From: Pseudanabaena cinerea FACHB-1277
Lineage (GTDB): Bacteria; Cyanobacteriota; Cyanobacteriia; Pseudanabaenales; Pseudanabaenaceae
DNA: 46,457 nucleotides
Direction of reading: 5' to 3'
NCBI RefSeq assembly: GCF_014696345.1
Contig: NZ_JACJPY010000033.1
Location: 1-46,457 of the forward strand
The notes beneath the pieces are model-generated. The model worked only from the letters and a program-made list of their open reading frames with translations, did not search any database and was not told the origin of the DNA. A program made the translations under genes and the position numbers. Shown one piece after another: positions 166-46,457 of the stretch (positions are counted from its first letter, which is position 1; every line of letters starts with the position of its first letter).

Positions 166-1059
166 TTAGCCATCAAGTTTAGAAAGAAGATTTTGAAATA
201 TTTCACATTTTTTCTGGAACCATTCAATTGAAAACCCATTTTCTCTTAGCACACACACAGAAGCCATCGTGTAAGAATGCTTACCTTCAAAAATGTCAGT
301 TAACTTTTGACAGCAGTTAATGAGCGTTTTATAGGCTTGTTTTTCTGAATTTTTTGGATTGCCAAGGTCTTTAAAAGCGTTCTGTAATTCTATGATCAGG
401 AGTTGAGTGCTTCTCTGTTGTGTTCTTCTCTCTTGGGCTAATTGATCGCGCTCGTTAAGTTTGAAAATCTTGAGACACATCTCACCTCTAGCACTCCCAT
501 TCAAAGAATACATTACTCCTTGAGAATCTACAGCCAAATGATTTTCTGGGTTGTCCTCATCTAGATTACTGATTGGATTGATTAGTAAGGGTCTTTCATT
601 TACTTCTTCGCCAACTGATTGAGCATAGTTCCCAATTACTGGGAAAATGGTGCTTTTAGGACGATTACATTTTTCGCAAGATGGTAGCAGATTGCGCCAG
701 TCGTAGGCTAACCAATAGTAACCATGATGGGGAATATTAGTTTCAAATCCTTGTGAATCTTTGAGATTTACGACATTGCCATTCTCATCTTTGATACCTG
801 CTTTAGGTCGAAAGTGTTCAATGTCAATGCTTTGAGTATCTGCAATAGGAGTTTCACAATAGGCGCAGCGACCATAAAATGGGGCATCTTTGCTGGCAAA
901 ATAAATTTGCTTAATTTCTTTTCTTTTGTAAAGATTGCTGATAATTGGCTTTTTACCTTCAGCAATAATCTCTATTAACTTTTTTGTTTCTTCTTGACAA
1001 TCTCGAATCCATTTTTCCCAGATTTCACTATCTGGCTCTTGAATGAATATTTTCCTCAC
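166..1059 (-). CDS. HNH endonuclease, TIGR02646/PtuB-like (putative anti-phage effector)
   Basis: The 297-residue protein is a probable metal-dependent DNA nuclease of the HNH family found in Septu (PtuB) and in retron Ec78-type defence systems. Visible hallmarks are CAYCE (Cys65, Cys68), DIEHFRPK (His82) and a second CxxC in LPSCEKCNRPK (Cys128, Cys131). The first pair with the second would bind structural zinc, and His82 is the likely catalytic base. HHGYYWLAYDWRNLLPSC is typical of the family. The start is GTG, preceded by a perfect AGGAGG (1067-1072) that lies in the last codons of the upstream ATPase gene. The stop of that gene is 2 nt away, so the two are almost certainly translated together. 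The family assignment is strong; the defence role is inferred from the family and the partner. Confidence 0.88.
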   Translation of the reverse strand: MRKIFIQEPDSEIWEKWIRDCQEETKKLIEIIAEGKKPIISNLYKRKEIKQIYFASKDAPFYGRCAYCETPIADTQSIDIEHFRPKAGIKDENGNVVNLKDSQGFETNIPHHGYYWLAYDWRNLLPSCEKCNRPKSTIFPVIGNYAQSVGEEVNERPLLINPISNLDEDNPENHLAVDSQGVMYSLNGSARGEMCLKIFKLNERDQLAQERRTQQRSTQLLIIELQNAFKDLGNPKNSEKQAYKTLINCCQKLTDIFEGKHSYTMASVCVLRENGFSIEWFQKKCEIFQNLLSKLDG

Positions 1060-1061
1060 CT

Positions 1062-4000
1062 CTAAACCTCCTGATTAGAAAGCTGTTGAAGATGTCTAGT
1101 TAGTTCGAGTTCTAGAAGTTCGGGCGTAATATCATTCGCTACTTTTTCAATCGCTGATTCTACTTCACTCCTAATTAACCTTTCCGTGGGATTTTCGCCA
1201 TCTTGTAAACCTTCTCTTACTTTGCCGCGTAATTCCTGTAATTCATTTTCTTCATCTTCAGTGCGCCTTGTACGACCAAGGAGTTCAGAGTAGCGATCAA
1301 TATCTGTCATGCTACCTAAATTACGACTGGTAACTAAACCAAAAGCTTCTGAGGTGAGTACTTGATCGGCACGTTTACCATATAGTTCTTCTTTATTGAT
1401 TAGCTTAGCTTGAACACCATTGTCATGGCTACGATCTAGCTTCACTAGAAGACCACTCTCGATATCCACAACTCCTGAAGCAGCTAAAGGGGTATGGGTG
1501 GAGGCAATAATTTGAGTGTTAGGGAACATTTCATGAAGACGTTGCACAAAATGACGCTGCCAGAGAGGATGTAAATGTTGTTCAATTTCATCAATGAGTA
1601 GAATTCCGCCAATATTCCCATTCTCTGTTAGTCGATTGGCATGGACAGCCCAACCAATAAAATCTAGCAACCATTGGCTAGTACTGCGATAACCATCACT
1701 GAGGGCGGCAAGGGGCTGTCTGCCCCAAGGTCCTTCAACTTCGATACCGCGATCGCTGTAATGAAACTGATATTCTGCATGGTCATCAAGCATTAGTACT
1801 TTGAGCAATTGTTGCTCGATTTGCTTGCGAACTTCGTCACTGCGCCGCCGTAAAACTACTTCTGGATCTTGGAAAGAGACTTGGGATGTAAACAAGGATT
1901 GCACAGCATCAAGGGTACGGTAGCCTTCATAATTGTTGTGAGATTGGGTAGTACGATTTGCTCCGTAACCACATACAAAAATATCGGACCACAGAAAATC
2001 AGCTTCTGGCTCAATTTTTTGGGTAAGCGTTTCACTTTTTTCTGATTTTTTGGTAATGGTAGTTGTAATCGTATAAGTGTTTGTTTGGTTATTTCCGTCT
2101 AGATTTTGCAAAGATCGATTATCTGGACTTTGTTGACGGGCGATCGCTATTAACTCATTAAGTTTTTCATCTGTGTTTGCTCGCCCAATCATTTCAACGA
2201 TCTGTTCAGAAAGACTAGTATATGGTGAAGGTTGCCCTAATTCTTCTGGTAAAGCATTTTTGAGGTCTTTAAGTTTAGAGATAGTTGGGAAAGCGCTTAG
2301 TAATGCTCGGTGTAATTGTTGTGATCGCACAAGTGGAATTTGTGATGCATCTTTGTTAGACAAAACAATCTTGATATAGCCTTCATCTGCACCATCTCGT
2401 ACCAAGTCTCCAGACAGAAATGACTTTAAAGCGGCAGCATCACTTTGATCGCACAGTCCGAGAGCAATACTTCTGAGTAAAGTAGTTTTTCCTGCGGCAT
2501 TTTCACCCAAAACCATGAACCAATCGGAGGGTTTATCACCTTCAGTAAAGCTTACTTTCAAACTCTCAAAGCATCGAATATTTTTAAGTTCAACTTCGGA
2601 AATCACCAAGTTTCGCCAAGAATAATCGGTTTGCTTAGTATCTAAACTAGTTATGCTTTGTGAATACTCCTGTGCTATTCTTTCATAAGTTTCTTTAAAT
2701 TTATCTATTTTTGTAACAGCTAGTTGAGGGAAGAACCAAGCTGCATGATCATTAGAGTATCTTAAGAGCATTCCCAAATGCAAAGCTAATAAGCCCAAAT
2801 CACCATCTGGTAGTTTTTTTGTGTAAATAGAGAATACAAGATTTTGGTAAAATGTATCTGATGTATTGTCATCTTTAAAACTTAAGTTAAGGTTTTCAAA
2901 GTGATTTTTTAATTGATCTGTTGCATAACTTACATCGATATCAATAATTTTTTTGCGACCTCTTCCAATAGCTGATAGGCAAGCATGACGAATTAACATC
3001 ATTAAATACGTTAAGTTGCCTCCACTATAAGAGGCTATCTTAGTTACTAACTCATGTGAATCAAATAAAGCATCAACGTCTATTCTTTTTTTTAAGAGTA
3101 AAATTAATTTTAGAATCGATAAATCTTCAATTTTCGGAATAGCTGAAACATCAATAAGTCTATAAACATTTACTAATGCTATAATTAAAAACTTTTGCTT
3201 GTCTAAATTAATTCTGGGGAGAACGTAATCAATAAAAATAGGTGATGTATATATTATATTAAAATCGAAATTTAATAGCTCTCTAACTTCAGTACCAAAT
3301 AATTTTTTCGCCGAATCTATATTGCAGCGATCTAAGTTATCAAAGATAAAAGCAATGCCTTTATAATCTTTTTTGCTTTCTTGAAAGATCTGATTTATGG
3401 ACTTAACCAATAAGCAGATTAATCTTCTAAACTCTCTCTGATATATATCTAAAGCCCCGCGATAAGATGAAACTTGTTCTATCCCTGAAGAATCAAGAGG
3501 ATGCGAATAGAATCTGGCTGTTTCATCTTTAATTTTAAGAATGATGCCAGACAAAAGTACCGAAATATCAGTTGATAAGTTTATGTCTTCATTGGATTTA
3601 TTGTAAATTTTACCTACTGTGTACTTAATCGACAGAATTTTGTCTTCAAGAGATAAGTATCCATAATTGGAATCAAGTTCAAAAGCTTCCTCAATAATTC
3701 TGACAAGTAAAAATCTAAAATCTTCAATAATGTTGGAATCAATTTCTATATTATGTTGACTTATATGTCGAACCAAATACAGTGCAGAGAGTAAATAGAT
3801 ATCAATATAATCAAAGTTATCTATGTTTGATATCTTGTCAGCCTCAATATAAATTACATGATAGTCACTACACCAATTCTTAATCAGCAAATTTAATTGT
3901 GTAGTCTTACCACAACCACGATGCCCAGCTAGAAAAAAAGTCTTATGTTCTCCCAATTCCTGCACAAATAGAGAAGCACCGATCGCTTTTACCGCATCAA

Positions 4001-4124
4001 AATCATCCTCATCTAATAAAGGCACATAATATTTGTCAAAATCCTCCCCACTCAGAGGCTTTGGCTCACATACACGATAAGCCTCGCGCAAATCAGTTGC
4101 AGGTTGTGATGGAGAAGATGACAT
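1062..4124 (-). CDS. Fused double P-loop ATPase, PtuA-like C-terminal half
   Basis: The 1020-residue protein has two nucleotide-binding modules. The N-terminal one (about 1-480) has Walker A GHRGCGKTT (67-75) and a Walker B-like AFIFDNLDR near 255, which resembles KAP/STAND/ORC-type ATPases. The C-terminal one (about 515-930) is SMC/ABC-like: Walker A GENAAGKTT near 538, signature LSDGYRSTS near 825, Walker B GILLIDEIEQHLHP and switch ASTHTPL. After it comes YGKRADQVLTSEAFGL, which recalls the DQxLxSxxFG segment of PtuA-type ATPases. PtuA proteins are usually about half this length, so the N-terminal ATPase is an added module. The DNA for about 2650-3950 looks clearly more AT-rich than the C-terminal half, suggesting separate origins. 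It is the first gene of an operon with the HNH nuclease. It may sense phage or foreign DNA and license the nuclease; that is inference. Confidence 0.87.
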   Translation of the reverse strand: MSSSPSQPATDLREAYRVCEPKPLSGEDFDKYYVPLLDEDDFDAVKAIGASLFVQELGEHKTFFLAGHRGCGKTTQLNLLIKNWCSDYHVIYIEADKISNIDNFDYIDIYLLSALYLVRHISQHNIEIDSNIIEDFRFLLVRIIEEAFELDSNYGYLSLEDKILSIKYTVGKIYNKSNEDINLSTDISVLLSGIILKIKDETARFYSHPLDSSGIEQVSSYRGALDIYQREFRRLICLLVKSINQIFQESKKDYKGIAFIFDNLDRCNIDSAKKLFGTEVRELLNFDFNIIYTSPIFIDYVLPRINLDKQKFLIIALVNVYRLIDVSAIPKIEDLSILKLILLLKKRIDVDALFDSHELVTKIASYSGGNLTYLMMLIRHACLSAIGRGRKKIIDIDVSYATDQLKNHFENLNLSFKDDNTSDTFYQNLVFSIYTKKLPDGDLGLLALHLGMLLRYSNDHAAWFFPQLAVTKIDKFKETYERIAQEYSQSITSLDTKQTDYSWRNLVISEVELKNIRCFESLKVSFTEGDKPSDWFMVLGENAAGKTTLLRSIALGLCDQSDAAALKSFLSGDLVRDGADEGYIKIVLSNKDASQIPLVRSQQLHRALLSAFPTISKLKDLKNALPEELGQPSPYTSLSEQIVEMIGRANTDEKLNELIAIARQQSPDNRSLQNLDGNNQTNTYTITTTITKKSEKSETLTQKIEPEADFLWSDIFVCGYGANRTTQSHNNYEGYRTLDAVQSLFTSQVSFQDPEVVLRRRSDEVRKQIEQQLLKVLMLDDHAEYQFHYSDRGIEVEGPWGRQPLAALSDGYRSTSQWLLDFIGWAVHANRLTENGNIGGILLIDEIEQHLHPLWQRHFVQRLHEMFPNTQIIASTHTPLAASGVVDIESGLLVKLDRSHDNGVQAKLINKEELYGKRADQVLTSEAFGLVTSRNLGSMTDIDRYSELLGRTRRTEDEENELQELRGKVREGLQDGENPTERLIRSEVESAIEKVANDITPELLELELTRHLQQLSNQEV

Positions 4125-19213: not shown

Positions 19214-19244
19214 TATTTTCTAATTGACTTATGAGCTAATTCCT

Positions 19245-20396
19245 ATGACACAGCTTAATATTAAGAATCTTGGTCAAATTAAGAGTGCAAATATAGATTT
19301 TGGCGATCTAACTCTGTTTGTTGGTTCTCAAGCCACAGGGAAGAGCATTTTATTACAACTCATAAAGTTGCTATTTGATTTCGAGAATATTAGAGATACT
19401 CTCATGAAATATGGATATCAATGGGAAGCAGATATATCCAACTTTAATGAGCTTTACTTCGGCGAGGGGATGCATAATCTATGGGGTGAAAGTACAAAAG
19501 TAATTCTTTACGATGAAGAAATAGATCTTCAGGAGCTATTAGTAGATGAATTACCCAATGAGTCTGAACAAATTTTTTTTGTGCCTGCCCAACGTGTACT
19601 AACTCTTGAGAATGGATGGCCGCGTTCATTTACTAGTTTTGAAATTGGAGATCCCTATGTTGTCCGTAATTTTAGTGAACATCTTCGCCTACTAATGCAA
19701 CAAGGGTTTAGCAACAAAGATAACACTGTTTTTCCTCAAACAGGACGACTCCGACAAGATATAAGTGATGCCATTAATGCAAGTATTTTTCATAATGCTA
19801 AAGTTGAATTAAATACAGTTGGGATGCGTAAACGCATTCAAATTAATGTTAATGGTAATTTGTTGCCATTTATGGCTTGGTCGGCTGGGCAAAGAGAATT
19901 TATGCCTTTACTTTTAGGACTTTATTGGCTAATGCCTGTGTCAGAAGATTCAAAGAAAGCAGATATCGATGTTGTAGTAATTGAAGAGCCAGAAATGGGT
20001 TTACATCCCCGTGCAATTCTGTCATTTATTTTAGTGTGTTTAGAACTCTTACACAGAGGCTACCGTCTAATTATTTCCACCCATTCACCTGTTCTTTTAG
20101 AAGCAGTTTGGGCAATTCGTAACTTGCAAAATAACAATTCTGATGTTAAGTATCTCTATCAACTTTTTGATTTAAAACCATCACCACCTATTACCGAACT
20201 TTTTGAAAATATCCTCAAAAACAAGAAATTTTCTACCTATTACTTCGATCAAGAGGAAGATGGTGTTGAGGTGCGGGATATTTCATCATTAGATCCCTTT
20301 GATGAAGACTTGTCAACGGCTGATTGGGGCGGATTGACTAGTTTTAGTAGTAAAGCTTCTGAAGTTGTTTCTCATGCGGTTCAAGATACATTATGA
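19245..20396 (+). CDS. AAA family ATPase (AAA_21, OLD/SMC-like) of a two-gene cassette
   Basis: The ~383-residue protein starts with MTQLNIKNLGQI, typical of this family. An earlier in-frame TTG at 19224 is less likely. It has Walker A GSQATGKS (27-34), a conserved WSAGQREFMPLLLG signature, Walker B DVVVIEEPEMGLHPRA and the His switch IISTHSPVLLEAVW. There is no TOPRIM domain at the C-terminus, so it is not a full OLD nuclease. Its stop overlaps the next start by ATGA, so the two products are made together. Such ATPases commonly activate a partner nuclease in defence; here that is inferred. Confidence 0.87.
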   Translation: MTQLNIKNLGQIKSANIDFGDLTLFVGSQATGKSILLQLIKLLFDFENIRDTLMKYGYQWEADISNFNELYFGEGMHNLWGESTKVILYDEEIDLQELLVDELPNESEQIFFVPAQRVLTLENGWPRSFTSFEIGDPYVVRNFSEHLRLLMQQGFSNKDNTVFPQTGRLRQDISDAINASIFHNAKVELNTVGMRKRIQINVNGNLLPFMAWSAGQREFMPLLLGLYWLMPVSEDSKKADIDVVVIEEPEMGLHPRAILSFILVCLELLHRGYRLIISTHSPVLLEAVWAIRNLQNNNSDVKYLYQLFDLKPSPPITELFENILKNKKFSTYYFDQEEDGVEVRDISSLDPFDEDLSTADWGGLTSFSSKASEVVSHAVQDTL

Positions 20397-20836
20397 GTTT
20401 AAAAATGGGTTTCAAAGCTGCGATCGCCGCTACTCCTTTACTAAAAAATGCTTACAAAGAAGGGCTACAAGCATTAGGAAGTTATAGCGTTAAAGTTAAA
20501 CCAACTGACACCAAAAAGTGTGAAGGTAGTGTCGATATTGATGTTGCGGTTAAGGCTGTCTATCCCGAAGAATCGCGATGGGATTATGCGATCGGATATG
20601 ACGGAAAGACATATTTTATTGAAATTCATAGCGCAGAGACATCTCAAGTTACACCAGTTTTAAAAAAGTTTGTCTGGTTAAAGGATTTTTTAGTCGCAGA
20701 AGCATCTGAGTTAAATAAAGAAAACAAGCGATTTTATTGGATTGCTTCGGGCAGAACCCAGATCTTGAAAGGAAGCGTTCAAGAACGTAAACTAGCTCTA
20801 TCAGGAATTATGTTGGTCGGACAACTTAATTTGTGA
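20393..20836 (+). CDS. Hypothetical protein, coupled partner of the AAA ATPase
   Basis: The 147-residue protein overlaps the ATPase by 4 bp. Its central part reads CEGSVDIDVAVKA, RWDYAIGYD and TYFIEIHSA, followed by a helix (VLKKFVWLKDFLVAEA) and RFYWIASGR. The pattern Asp64 - strand - Glu77-x-His79 after a beta hairpin is reminiscent of PD-(D/E)XK nucleases with the Lys replaced, but this is only a resemblance. No domain name is certain. The tight coupling suggests an effector or adaptor. Confidence 0.72.
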   Translation: MSLKMGFKAAIAATPLLKNAYKEGLQALGSYSVKVKPTDTKKCEGSVDIDVAVKAVYPEESRWDYAIGYDGKTYFIEIHSAETSQVTPVLKKFVWLKDFLVAEASELNKENKRFYWIASGRTQILKGSVQERKLALSGIMLVGQLNL

Positions 20837-44499: not shown

Positions 44500-44552
44500 C
44501 AAAACCGAAGAGATTGTTCCGCCCGCTACGCGGGCGGAACAATCTCTGGTTT
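44500..44552. terminator. Strong bidirectional hairpin terminator
   Basis: The arms AGAGATTGTTCCGCCCGC and GCGGGCGGAACAATCTCT (44510-44547) pair perfectly around a 2-nt TA/TAC-type turn, flanked outside by AAAACC and GGTTTT. It ends the kinase gene and the convergent DUF3226 gene. Confidence 0.9.
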
Positions 44553-44623
44553 TAGGATTTAATATGCTGATCTACTTATTACAGACAAAGTTGGTCAAAA
44601 ATAGAACCTGCGGTTACTTTGAC

Positions 44624-45262
44624 TCACAACTCATACAATTCCTTAAACCAAGTCACAAATTTCTGAGCATTAGGATGTGTTCTATCAAAAATAGTTCTCT
44701 TCTTGACTGCTGTTGAGATTTGTAGTCCTGATGGTTCTTGCCAAGCTAACCAAGTGTAAATATTTGCTTTGTCAATGTGATTTGGTGTAACTTTTGCCCC
44801 TCTAATCTTTGCTTCCTGCACCGACTCTTTCGCAAACTCCCATAAAACTTGATTTTCTTCAGGAATAATGTCAGCTAAAAAAGTCTCTAACATCCCACGC
44901 ATCTTGTTGTCAGGCATCATCCAAATCCCAAATTGAATATCATTAGGTGCATTCCAAATTAATCCATTCTCTGGCAGATCTTTTGGCAAATCAGGAATGC
45001 TTGGTAAGCAAACATTTCTGATGCTCGTCCAACGATTATTAGGATGTTCATCGGCATCAATAATGATACCCAGTGTAGTTAGTCCAGAAGCTAATAATTC
45101 TGTCGCAATTACTTCTTCTTTTGCCAAATTTTCGTAACCATTTGAAGGTTTAATCCAGTCAATATCTTTTGCAACAATGAAATTTAACCCATGCGATTTC
45201 ATCAGTTCTGCAATTACAAACTTATCGTCCTTACCTTCAACAAGCAATACTTTATCGTTCAT
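44624..45262 (-). CDS. DUF3226 protein (TOPRIM-like), partner of the AAA ATPase
   Basis: The 212-residue protein starts NDKVLLVEGKDDKFVIAELM, with a Glu at the position of TOPRIM catalysis, and has the GIIIDADEHP acidic motif (about 76-85). DUF3226 is related to the TOPRIM nucleases of OLD proteins. Its ATG is 3 bp after the ATPase stop, so the two form an operon. The arrangement is like an OLD nuclease split in two. The nuclease role is inferred. Confidence 0.83.
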   Translation of the reverse strand: MNDKVLLVEGKDDKFVIAELMKSHGLNFIVAKDIDWIKPSNGYENLAKEEVIATELLASGLTTLGIIIDADEHPNNRWTSIRNVCLPSIPDLPKDLPENGLIWNAPNDIQFGIWMMPDNKMRGMLETFLADIIPEENQVLWEFAKESVQEAKIRGAKVTPNHIDKANIYTWLAWQEPSGLQISTAVKKRTIFDRTHPNAQKFVTWFKELYEL

Positions 45263-45265
45263 GAT

Positions 45266-46354
45266 TTACCGAACCTCAATATGACGTTCCGCCGCGATCG
45301 CAATTTGTCGCTCAGTAAAGACAATGCTGTGCGGTTTTCCTTTTTCTACTCGATGAATCGTAATTCCATCTTCGCTAGGATTTTCTGCATTGGCAATATC
45401 CGCCAAACTCTGCCAGCAATCATTGCTATGGGTAGTTGCAAAAATCTGTACATTAAGACGCTTTGCTGTTTCCCAGAGCATTTTCCACATATCAGACATC
45501 ACGGTAAAATGCAGTCCTGTATCAATTTCATCAACTAACAAAACTCCATCTTTTGCATTGACGATCGCTAAAGCAAGTCCTAGCATTCGCCACATTCCAT
45601 CGCCCATGCTACCAATTGGTATACGTTGATTTTCGGGTGTTTGGACAATAAAACTACCGCGTGTACCTTTATATGAATTCTTGCCAATAAGAGGCGCAAT
45701 TCGTTTTATTTGAGGTTCAATAATCTGTAAAGCCTGAATAACAAGATCTTCTTCTGGCGTAAGTACCTTATCTTCAAATAAATTAAGCGCTTGTTCAGTA
45801 GTTAGTGATGATGAGTTTACAAACTGAAGATTTGACTTGCTATGATTTACTAGACTATTAACCGTGTCTTGCAATGTCTTGAGAGATAGCATTCCTTCTG
45901 AGGAAAGTTTGACTGAGGTTTCAATTTCCATAAAATCTATCAGACGTTTAACACATAGCAATATCAATTCTTGATCTGTATGTTGTGCCTTTCTATTCTT
46001 GATATCAATAATTAATTCTGTTTGATTATCACTAAAACTTTTACCACTGATTGTAAATTTACTATCAATTTGAATTTGATGGTTATAAAAAAGATGACGA
46101 ATCACCAAATTTTTGTCTTGGTATTCTTCATTCATAACATACTCACTTCTACCAGTGATTATTTCTCCTAGTACTTCAAAGTCAAAAGTAAAAGGTGCAT
46201 CAAGAAGTAATTAAAGTGCTTCTAAAATGGAAGTTTTACCACTGTTATTAGTACCAACAATGAGATTTAACCTTCCTAGTTGTCTCATCTCAAAGGATGG
46301 GAAGCAGCGAAAATTTTCTATTTTGAGGGATTTCAACATAATCAATTCGCTCAT
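45266..46354 (-). pseudogene. AAA family ATPase interrupted by one in-frame TAA
   Basis: The gene has its N-terminal part at 46354-46211: MLKSLKIENFRCFPSF and Walker A GTNNSGKTSILEAL, then TAA (46211-46213). It goes on in the same frame with LLLDAPFTFDFEVLGEIITG and the rest to 45266. Later motifs are intact: MGDGMWRMLGLALAI, Walker B GVLLVDEIDTGLHFTV and FATTHSND. In the family EAL is followed by Tyr then LLL, so the ochre is explained by one change of a Tyr codon. A start at 46339 is also possible. It may be a recent null, a sequencing error or read-through. The shorter ORF from ATG 46135 lacks the P-loop. Confidence 0.85.
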
Positions 46355-46416
46355 GTGGGTAAATAGGTGAAATGGTAAAATAGGAAAAAAGTTTTGACGC
46401 AACAACAGACATAAAC

Positions 46417-46457
46417 ATGATCAAGTTTCCCCTAACTGAACTGTTAGACGATCAAGC
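46417..46457 (+). CDS. Start of a probable transposase gene, cut by the window end
   Basis: Reads MIKFPLTELLDDQ to the edge. The opening is like that of a zinc-ribbon transposase family (IS1/IS1595-like) that I recall from cyanobacteria; 13 residues are too few to be sure. Confidence 0.35.
   Translation, partial: MIKFPLTELLDDQ

Follow-up and report, generated by a model that had tools for sequence, protein, structure and literature searches.

At the right end of the 46,457-nucleotide stretch analyzed here (the window), which is contig C107 of the Pseudanabaena cinerea FACHB-1277 assembly (4.77 Mb in 179 contigs; genome G000), an AAA ATPase frame carrying a stop codon lies next to a complete DUF3226 gene. 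The locus raises two questions: whether the ATPase is genuinely broken, and what such a gene pair does where it is whole. We consider it probable that the window holds a decayed copy of the candidate system PDC-M38, and that its intact relatives combine a PARIS/OLD-like sensor ATPase with a Toprim nuclease whose modules are swapped between genomes.

The ATPase frame and its DUF3226 partner

The ATPase gene (45266–46339, minus strand), recognized from the open reading frame list and from the family models PDC-M38A and AAA_15, spans 357 codons, the same length as the intact homologue in G009 (357 aa). As a preliminary description of this DNA had reported, the frame is open except for an ochre codon, TAA (46211–46213, minus strand), which is codon 43 in the frame translation and falls just past the P-loop GTNNSGKT. 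Both pieces flanking the stop match AAA_15 and PDC-M38A, and because the 42-aa piece before it (1.7e-20) and the 289-aa piece after it (1.5e-62) each match PDC-M38A, a chance origin of the split frame is excluded. The residue expected at codon 43 had been given as tyrosine, which is wrong: glutamine is found in 15/15 Pseudanabaena relatives, and the 77 wider loci have Gln (53), Glu (7), Leu (5), His (5), Asp (3), Tyr (2), Lys (1) and Ile (1). Conservation of the stop among strains had also been raised as a check, and TAA is absent from this position in all 15 near relatives and all 77 wider loci.

Outside the stop, the window ATPase keeps its catalytic residues. Walker A (GTNNSGKT, codons 29–36; 46232–46255, minus strand) consists of residues that are invariant in 47 homologues. 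Alignment of homologues also places a signature-like motif, GSMGDGMWR (codons 243–251; 45587–45613, minus strand), and Walker B, GVLLVDEID (codons 265–273; 45521–45547, minus strand).

Separated from the ATPase by 3 nt, the DUF3226 gene (44624–45262, minus strand) is intact and encodes a 212-aa candidate Toprim-fold nuclease that matches PF11536 (E = 3.5e-65) and PDC-M38B (9.4e-65). Alignment identifies a putative Toprim glutamate, E9 (45236–45238, minus strand), its role assigned by analogy to OLD (PMC6755086, in excerpt), and a DxD motif, D69-A70-D71 (45050–45058, minus strand). Across 43 sequences E9, D69 and D71 are invariant or near-invariant and E126 and K165 are invariant; the latter two may be counterparts of the glutamate for the second metal and of the lysine in Bp OLD (PMC6755086, in excerpt), an equivalence drawn by analogy.

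Judged by family models, the window pair is a broken copy of the PADLOC candidate PDC-M38 (PDC-M38A plus PDC-M38B): both genes match over most of their length, adjacent and in the same order, but the window copy is not intact, having both the ochre codon and an insertion sequence (IS). A literature search for DUF3226 or PDC-M38 found no published function, and PDC-M38 is a candidate label. ATPase and DUF3226 genes are neighbours across cyanobacteria, and some Planctomycetes, Desulfobulbaceae and Proteobacteria also have them side by side. DUF3226 had 0 matches in phage records; elsewhere there were 9 distant plasmid matches and 4 in viral contigs.

The window carries other loci of related type. 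A Septu-like pair (166–4124) comprises an HNH protein resembling PtuB and a PtuA-like ATPase of 1020 aa, which has an additional P-loop part at its N terminus and also shows an EAD1-like match. A second ATPase cassette (19224–20836) matches the candidate PDC-M56A/PDC-M56B over nearly full length; kinship of DUF3226 with the partner gene of this PDC-M56 locus was considered and rejected, as the two showed no similarity. A short palindromic repeat with GC-rich arms lies at 44500–44580, and the rest of the genome contains about ten relatives of it.

Inactivation in the window and in its relatives

A second lesion lies at the ATPase start. The final nucleotides of the window (46348–46457, plus strand) are the left end of an IS1595-like element with a transposase start at ATG 46417. 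The contig end truncates the element, within a repeat that matches 30 places in the genome. The IS1595-like family call rests on a related copy in G009, which encodes a transposase (DDE_Tnp_IS1595, E = 1.5e-18). Between the element and the ATPase, an 8-bp target duplication, AATCAATT (46340–46347), abuts the ATPase ATG. Of the element's 14 right ends, one, located on contig C164, has a flank that opens with the same AATCAATT, and this flank has 30 nt in common with the uninterrupted site in G021, reaching the G021 ATPase ATG. The 8-bp duplication and the empty site in G021 thus make it most likely that the element separates the ATPase ATG from the DNA once upstream of it, and that this old upstream region is on C164. 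We infer that the insertion is a lesion independent of the ochre codon. The preliminary description had regarded everything downstream of the stop as intact, which holds for DUF3226, and had overlooked the IS end on the upstream side of the ATPase.

We conclude that the window ATPase is a genuine and fairly recent pseudogene with two lesions, ordinary in itself. Nonsynonymous to synonymous changes were 11:18 in the G000 lineage versus 2:24 in that of G009 with two outgroups (Fisher p = 0.011), and 15:30 versus 4:34 with one outgroup (p = 0.018), counts that include the stop codon itself and that cassette exchange could disturb. The loss is not old, since the catalytic residues are kept and dN/dS between window and G009 remains low (0.042/0.569). 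An error of sequencing or assembly at the TAA, leaving the ATPase intact in the cell, would take just one substitution, and every other ATPase motif is intact; we nevertheless regard it as quite unlikely, because the IS insertion, which the assembly shows separately on two contigs, cuts the gene from its upstream DNA in any case and because amino acid changes are in surplus in the G000 lineage. The assembly is also 99.99% complete and 0.11% contaminated, scores that do not test single bases. Read-through or recoding of the ochre codon into a regulated full-length ATPase would fit a frame open on both sides of the TAA, but is scarcely credible, as none of the 38 tRNA genes searched for a suppressor has a UAA-reading anticodon and the stop is unique to the window genome, with no conserved context. 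It is also very unlikely that a shortened ATPase restarting at the internal ATG 46135 is functional: a 289-aa open reading frame does exist downstream of the stop, but its product would lack Walker A, invariant in the 47 homologues, and all 15 near relatives have the full frame. Among the outcomes offered in the preliminary description, recent loss therefore stands, error has become less likely and read-through is set aside.

Loss of the ATPase–DUF3226 unit is common and recurs in Pseudanabaena. A close-type cassette or remnant was found in 17 genomes (16 ATPases plus G028), and 4/17 are broken, in four ways. Besides the window genome, with its ochre codon and IS insertion, G013 has a nonsense codon at DUF3226 codon 182 (L047 / L091 4534–5079), while its near-identical sister G012 is intact; G016 has DUF3226 interrupted near codon 4, with ATPase and nuclease on different contigs (L012, L042); and G028 retains a 5'-truncated remnant. 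The G016 contig ends at the DUF3226 break have similar inverted ends and an IS-like look. Among 84 named loci, two genes of intact length are present in 74, and 10 do not pass simple length criteria, in one case solely because the contig ends.

The genomic position of the cassette also recurs. The cassette directly follows metH in 6/15 Pseudanabaena loci by a strict pattern, or 8/15 if L013 and L014, which depart slightly from it, are included. Within the genus, cassettes recur at the 3' end of metH (L091 20–3436; L088 4327–4608), and in G009 just a 93-aa ORF from the metH end precedes the cassette among the listed ORFs. Cyanobacteria are described as lacking Rho (PMC13289151, in the part available).

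Exchange of modules between intact relatives

Comparison of the window with its congeners (other Pseudanabaena) revealed a mosaic. Across eight tabulated relatives, identity to the window is 82–94% in the initial 120 bp of the ATPase, drops to 35–60% in the centre in some of them, and is 74–95% over codons about 240–357. For comparison, the control gene asd shows 78–80% identity to 24 congeners (a short G031 match included). At 4-fold sites, identity is 31–44% in asd, 43–81% in the N block and 51–63% in the C block, with the exception of G031, whose C block (23%) is not recombinant-like. Identity profiles define one exchange module, V1, as the hypervariable ATPase centre from codon 43 to about 232–240 (45644–46213, minus strand). 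The other, V2, comprises the ATPase tail (codons 336–357) and approximately the first 60 residues of DUF3226 (45083–45334, minus strand), and in other pairs takes in the whole of DUF3226.

Pseudanabaena DUF3226 falls into three types (A, B and C), and near-identical ATPase centres occur with different types: window/G009 (89%, C/A), G021/G013 (99%, A/B) and G010/G014 (84%, A/B). The ATPase body and DUF3226 give trees that are mutually rejected (AU p = 7e-7 and 1e-91). By Mantel test the centre is not correlated with DUF3226 (rho = -0.05, p = 0.60), whereas the tail is (rho = 0.74, p = 0.0005). Out of 167 informative ATPase columns, the four that track DUF3226 type (344, 345, 352 and 353) are all in the last 14 residues; at the nucleotide level the association starts at about codon 335, one exception lying at 318. 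The ATPase tail and DUF3226 thus move together. The intact relatives are thus clear and repeated mosaics, in which V1 and V2 have been exchanged independently between near-invariant blocks.

Exchange extends beyond the genus, to Microcystis, Nostoc and the Dolichospermum group. The 63 loci outside Pseudanabaena form 1953 pairs, 80 of which are at least 75% identical in DUF3226 or in the centre. Within these 80, DUF3226 is at least 75% identical while the centre is at most 55% in 27 pairs, and the centre is at least 75% identical while DUF3226 is at most 70% in 16. Six pairs, picked from the most discordant, were segmented by DNA identity. Successive segments are 94, 58 and 96% identical in L178/L181 (Anabaena/Dolichospermum; borders at codons 42/43 and 260/261), 98, 45 and 97% in L156/L165 (Microcystis) and 91, 57 and 93% in L139/L141 (Nostoc). 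In the Microcystis pair L132/L165 (96, 60 and 97%) the difference is limited to codons 345–436, the ATPase tail and DUF3226 start. Two-segment patterns were found in L149/L181 (96 and 78%, border 382/383) and L148/L161 (95 and 68%, border 334/335). A sharp border at codon 42/43 occurs in two pairs other than the window comparisons, and we take its falling on the window's stop codon to be a coincidence.

The cassette is compact and sits at different places, because in most of eleven aligned pairs identity collapses soon past the ATPase start and the DUF3226 end. Upstream flank is common to L132/L165 and to L139/L154; that of L132 and L165 is near-identical, and the two loci differ mainly in a block of ~92 codons. 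Across 61 loci outside Pseudanabaena, ATPase and DUF3226 identities are strongly correlated (rho = 0.88), and coupling to DUF3226 does not set the tail apart (partial rho = 0.12). Linkage, not docking, may therefore explain why tail and DUF3226 move together, and a docking role of the ATPase tail is weakly supported. A literature search at the level of listings did not find such module exchange.

Relaxed constraint could also make the centre variable, and the centre is the least conserved part across 47 distant homologues too. We think this reading has very little chance of being correct, given step-like borders with 94–98% DNA identity on either side of 45–58%, discordant ATPase-body and DUF3226 trees, and 4-fold-site identity in the N and C blocks that exceeds the asd control for most pairs. 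Exchange between conserved blocks accounts for the pattern, and the relatives amount to natural chimeras, with one nuclease beside different ATPase centres and vice versa and with borders defined to within a few codons. These chimeras make it testable which part of an OLD/PARIS-like ATPase recognizes phage and which part holds the nuclease.

Candidate function and relation to known systems

The preliminary description had proposed a split OLD-type ATPase-nuclease, and fold and architecture support this. The predicted DUF3226 model (mean pLDDT 91.7) aligns with OLD Toprim structures 6nk8 (Z = 10.5, rmsd 4.7, 173 residues) and 6p74 (Z = 9.1, rmsd 3.3, 133 residues) and with the retron Eco2 Toprim (Z = 8.4); it also aligns with GajA (7.5) and PARIS chain 8ux9_A (7.1), where values below 8 may reflect just a common arrangement. 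Its best fold match is an uncharacterized archaeal protein, 2p62 (Z = 12.3, rmsd 3.5, 191 residues). Fold comparison alone was informative here, as a PDB sequence search with the DUF3226 profile gave nothing significant (best E = 0.2); Foldseek alone found no DUF3226 match at E ≤ 0.001. The ATPase model from the intact relative L121 (pLDDT 90.3) aligns with PtuA, SMC, Rad50, GajA and AriA at Z = 17–19, including the AriA–AriB entry 8v46_B (17.2). These predicted models fit an OLD/PtuA/SMC-like ATPase paired with an OLD Toprim-like DUF3226, a split OLD that is PARIS-like by architecture.

By analogy with PARIS, anti-phage defence is a candidate function of the pair. Transferring the sense-and-release mechanism of AriA/AriB, we infer that in intact relatives the ATPase would hold the DUF3226 Toprim nuclease until an infection signal, read by the hypervariable ATPase centre, releases or activates it; the freed nuclease would then cut nucleic acid and stop phage growth. 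We propose from the exchange pattern that the centre may be a swappable phage-sensor module. Diversifying selection, acting on the sensor and also on a part that serves as effector or in docking, would then account for swaps of the centre and for those that take the tail together with DUF3226, either its start or the whole of it. In the window, with the IS1595-like element 8 bp before the ATPase start cutting the gene from its former upstream DNA, no active ATPase would be made, a restart at ATG 46135 would yield a product without the P-loop, and the intact DUF3226 may be silent or unregulated without an active ATPase. More tentatively, and with somewhat less than even confidence, we suggest a split OLD-like immune system whose sensor and effector-side modules are traded by recombination in the invariant blocks, giving combinatorial specificity, with cassettes repeatedly switched off by nonsense mutations or IS insertions. 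A DNA-repair or housekeeping role for the ATPase–Toprim couple is unlikely. The ATPase fold is also near Rad50, SMC and RecF, and an OLD-family ATPase is reported to have a cell-cycle role in an archaeon (PMC12796447, in the portion available); against this stand patchy presence (DUF3226 in 21/38 family genomes), frequent breakage, changing flanks and module swaps, and the two other defence-type loci in the window.

The defence reading draws most directly on PARIS, in which AriA detects phage proteins and sets free AriB, which cuts tRNA (PMC12409363, available text). With its ATPase and Toprim parts encoded by different genes, PARIS has been put forward as class 4 of OLD (PMC10568477, available text). 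The window pair likewise encodes an ABC ATPase and a Toprim nuclease candidate on two adjacent genes, and the predicted folds align. By family models the pair is nevertheless not PARIS, since none of the four families that DUF3226 matches at E ≤ 1 is an AriB model. The window ATPase does match AriA (9.9e-19), though it scores far better to PDC-M38A (1.5e-62). With class 1 and 2 OLD proteins, including GajA, the pair has in common the Toprim fold, the E and DxD residues and the ATPase type, but it consists of two ORFs where OLD is one polypeptide. The ATPase also matches AbiLi of the AbiL system (AbiLi/AbiLii) at 1.5e-29, whereas its DUF3226 partner matches no AbiLii model. In the specificity subunit of Type I restriction systems, conserved blocks flank a variable recognition part that is replaced through recombination. 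The ATPase–DUF3226 mosaic would work in the same way, with a variable part set between conserved blocks, although the proteins are unrelated and the recognition role of the ATPase centre is a putative one.
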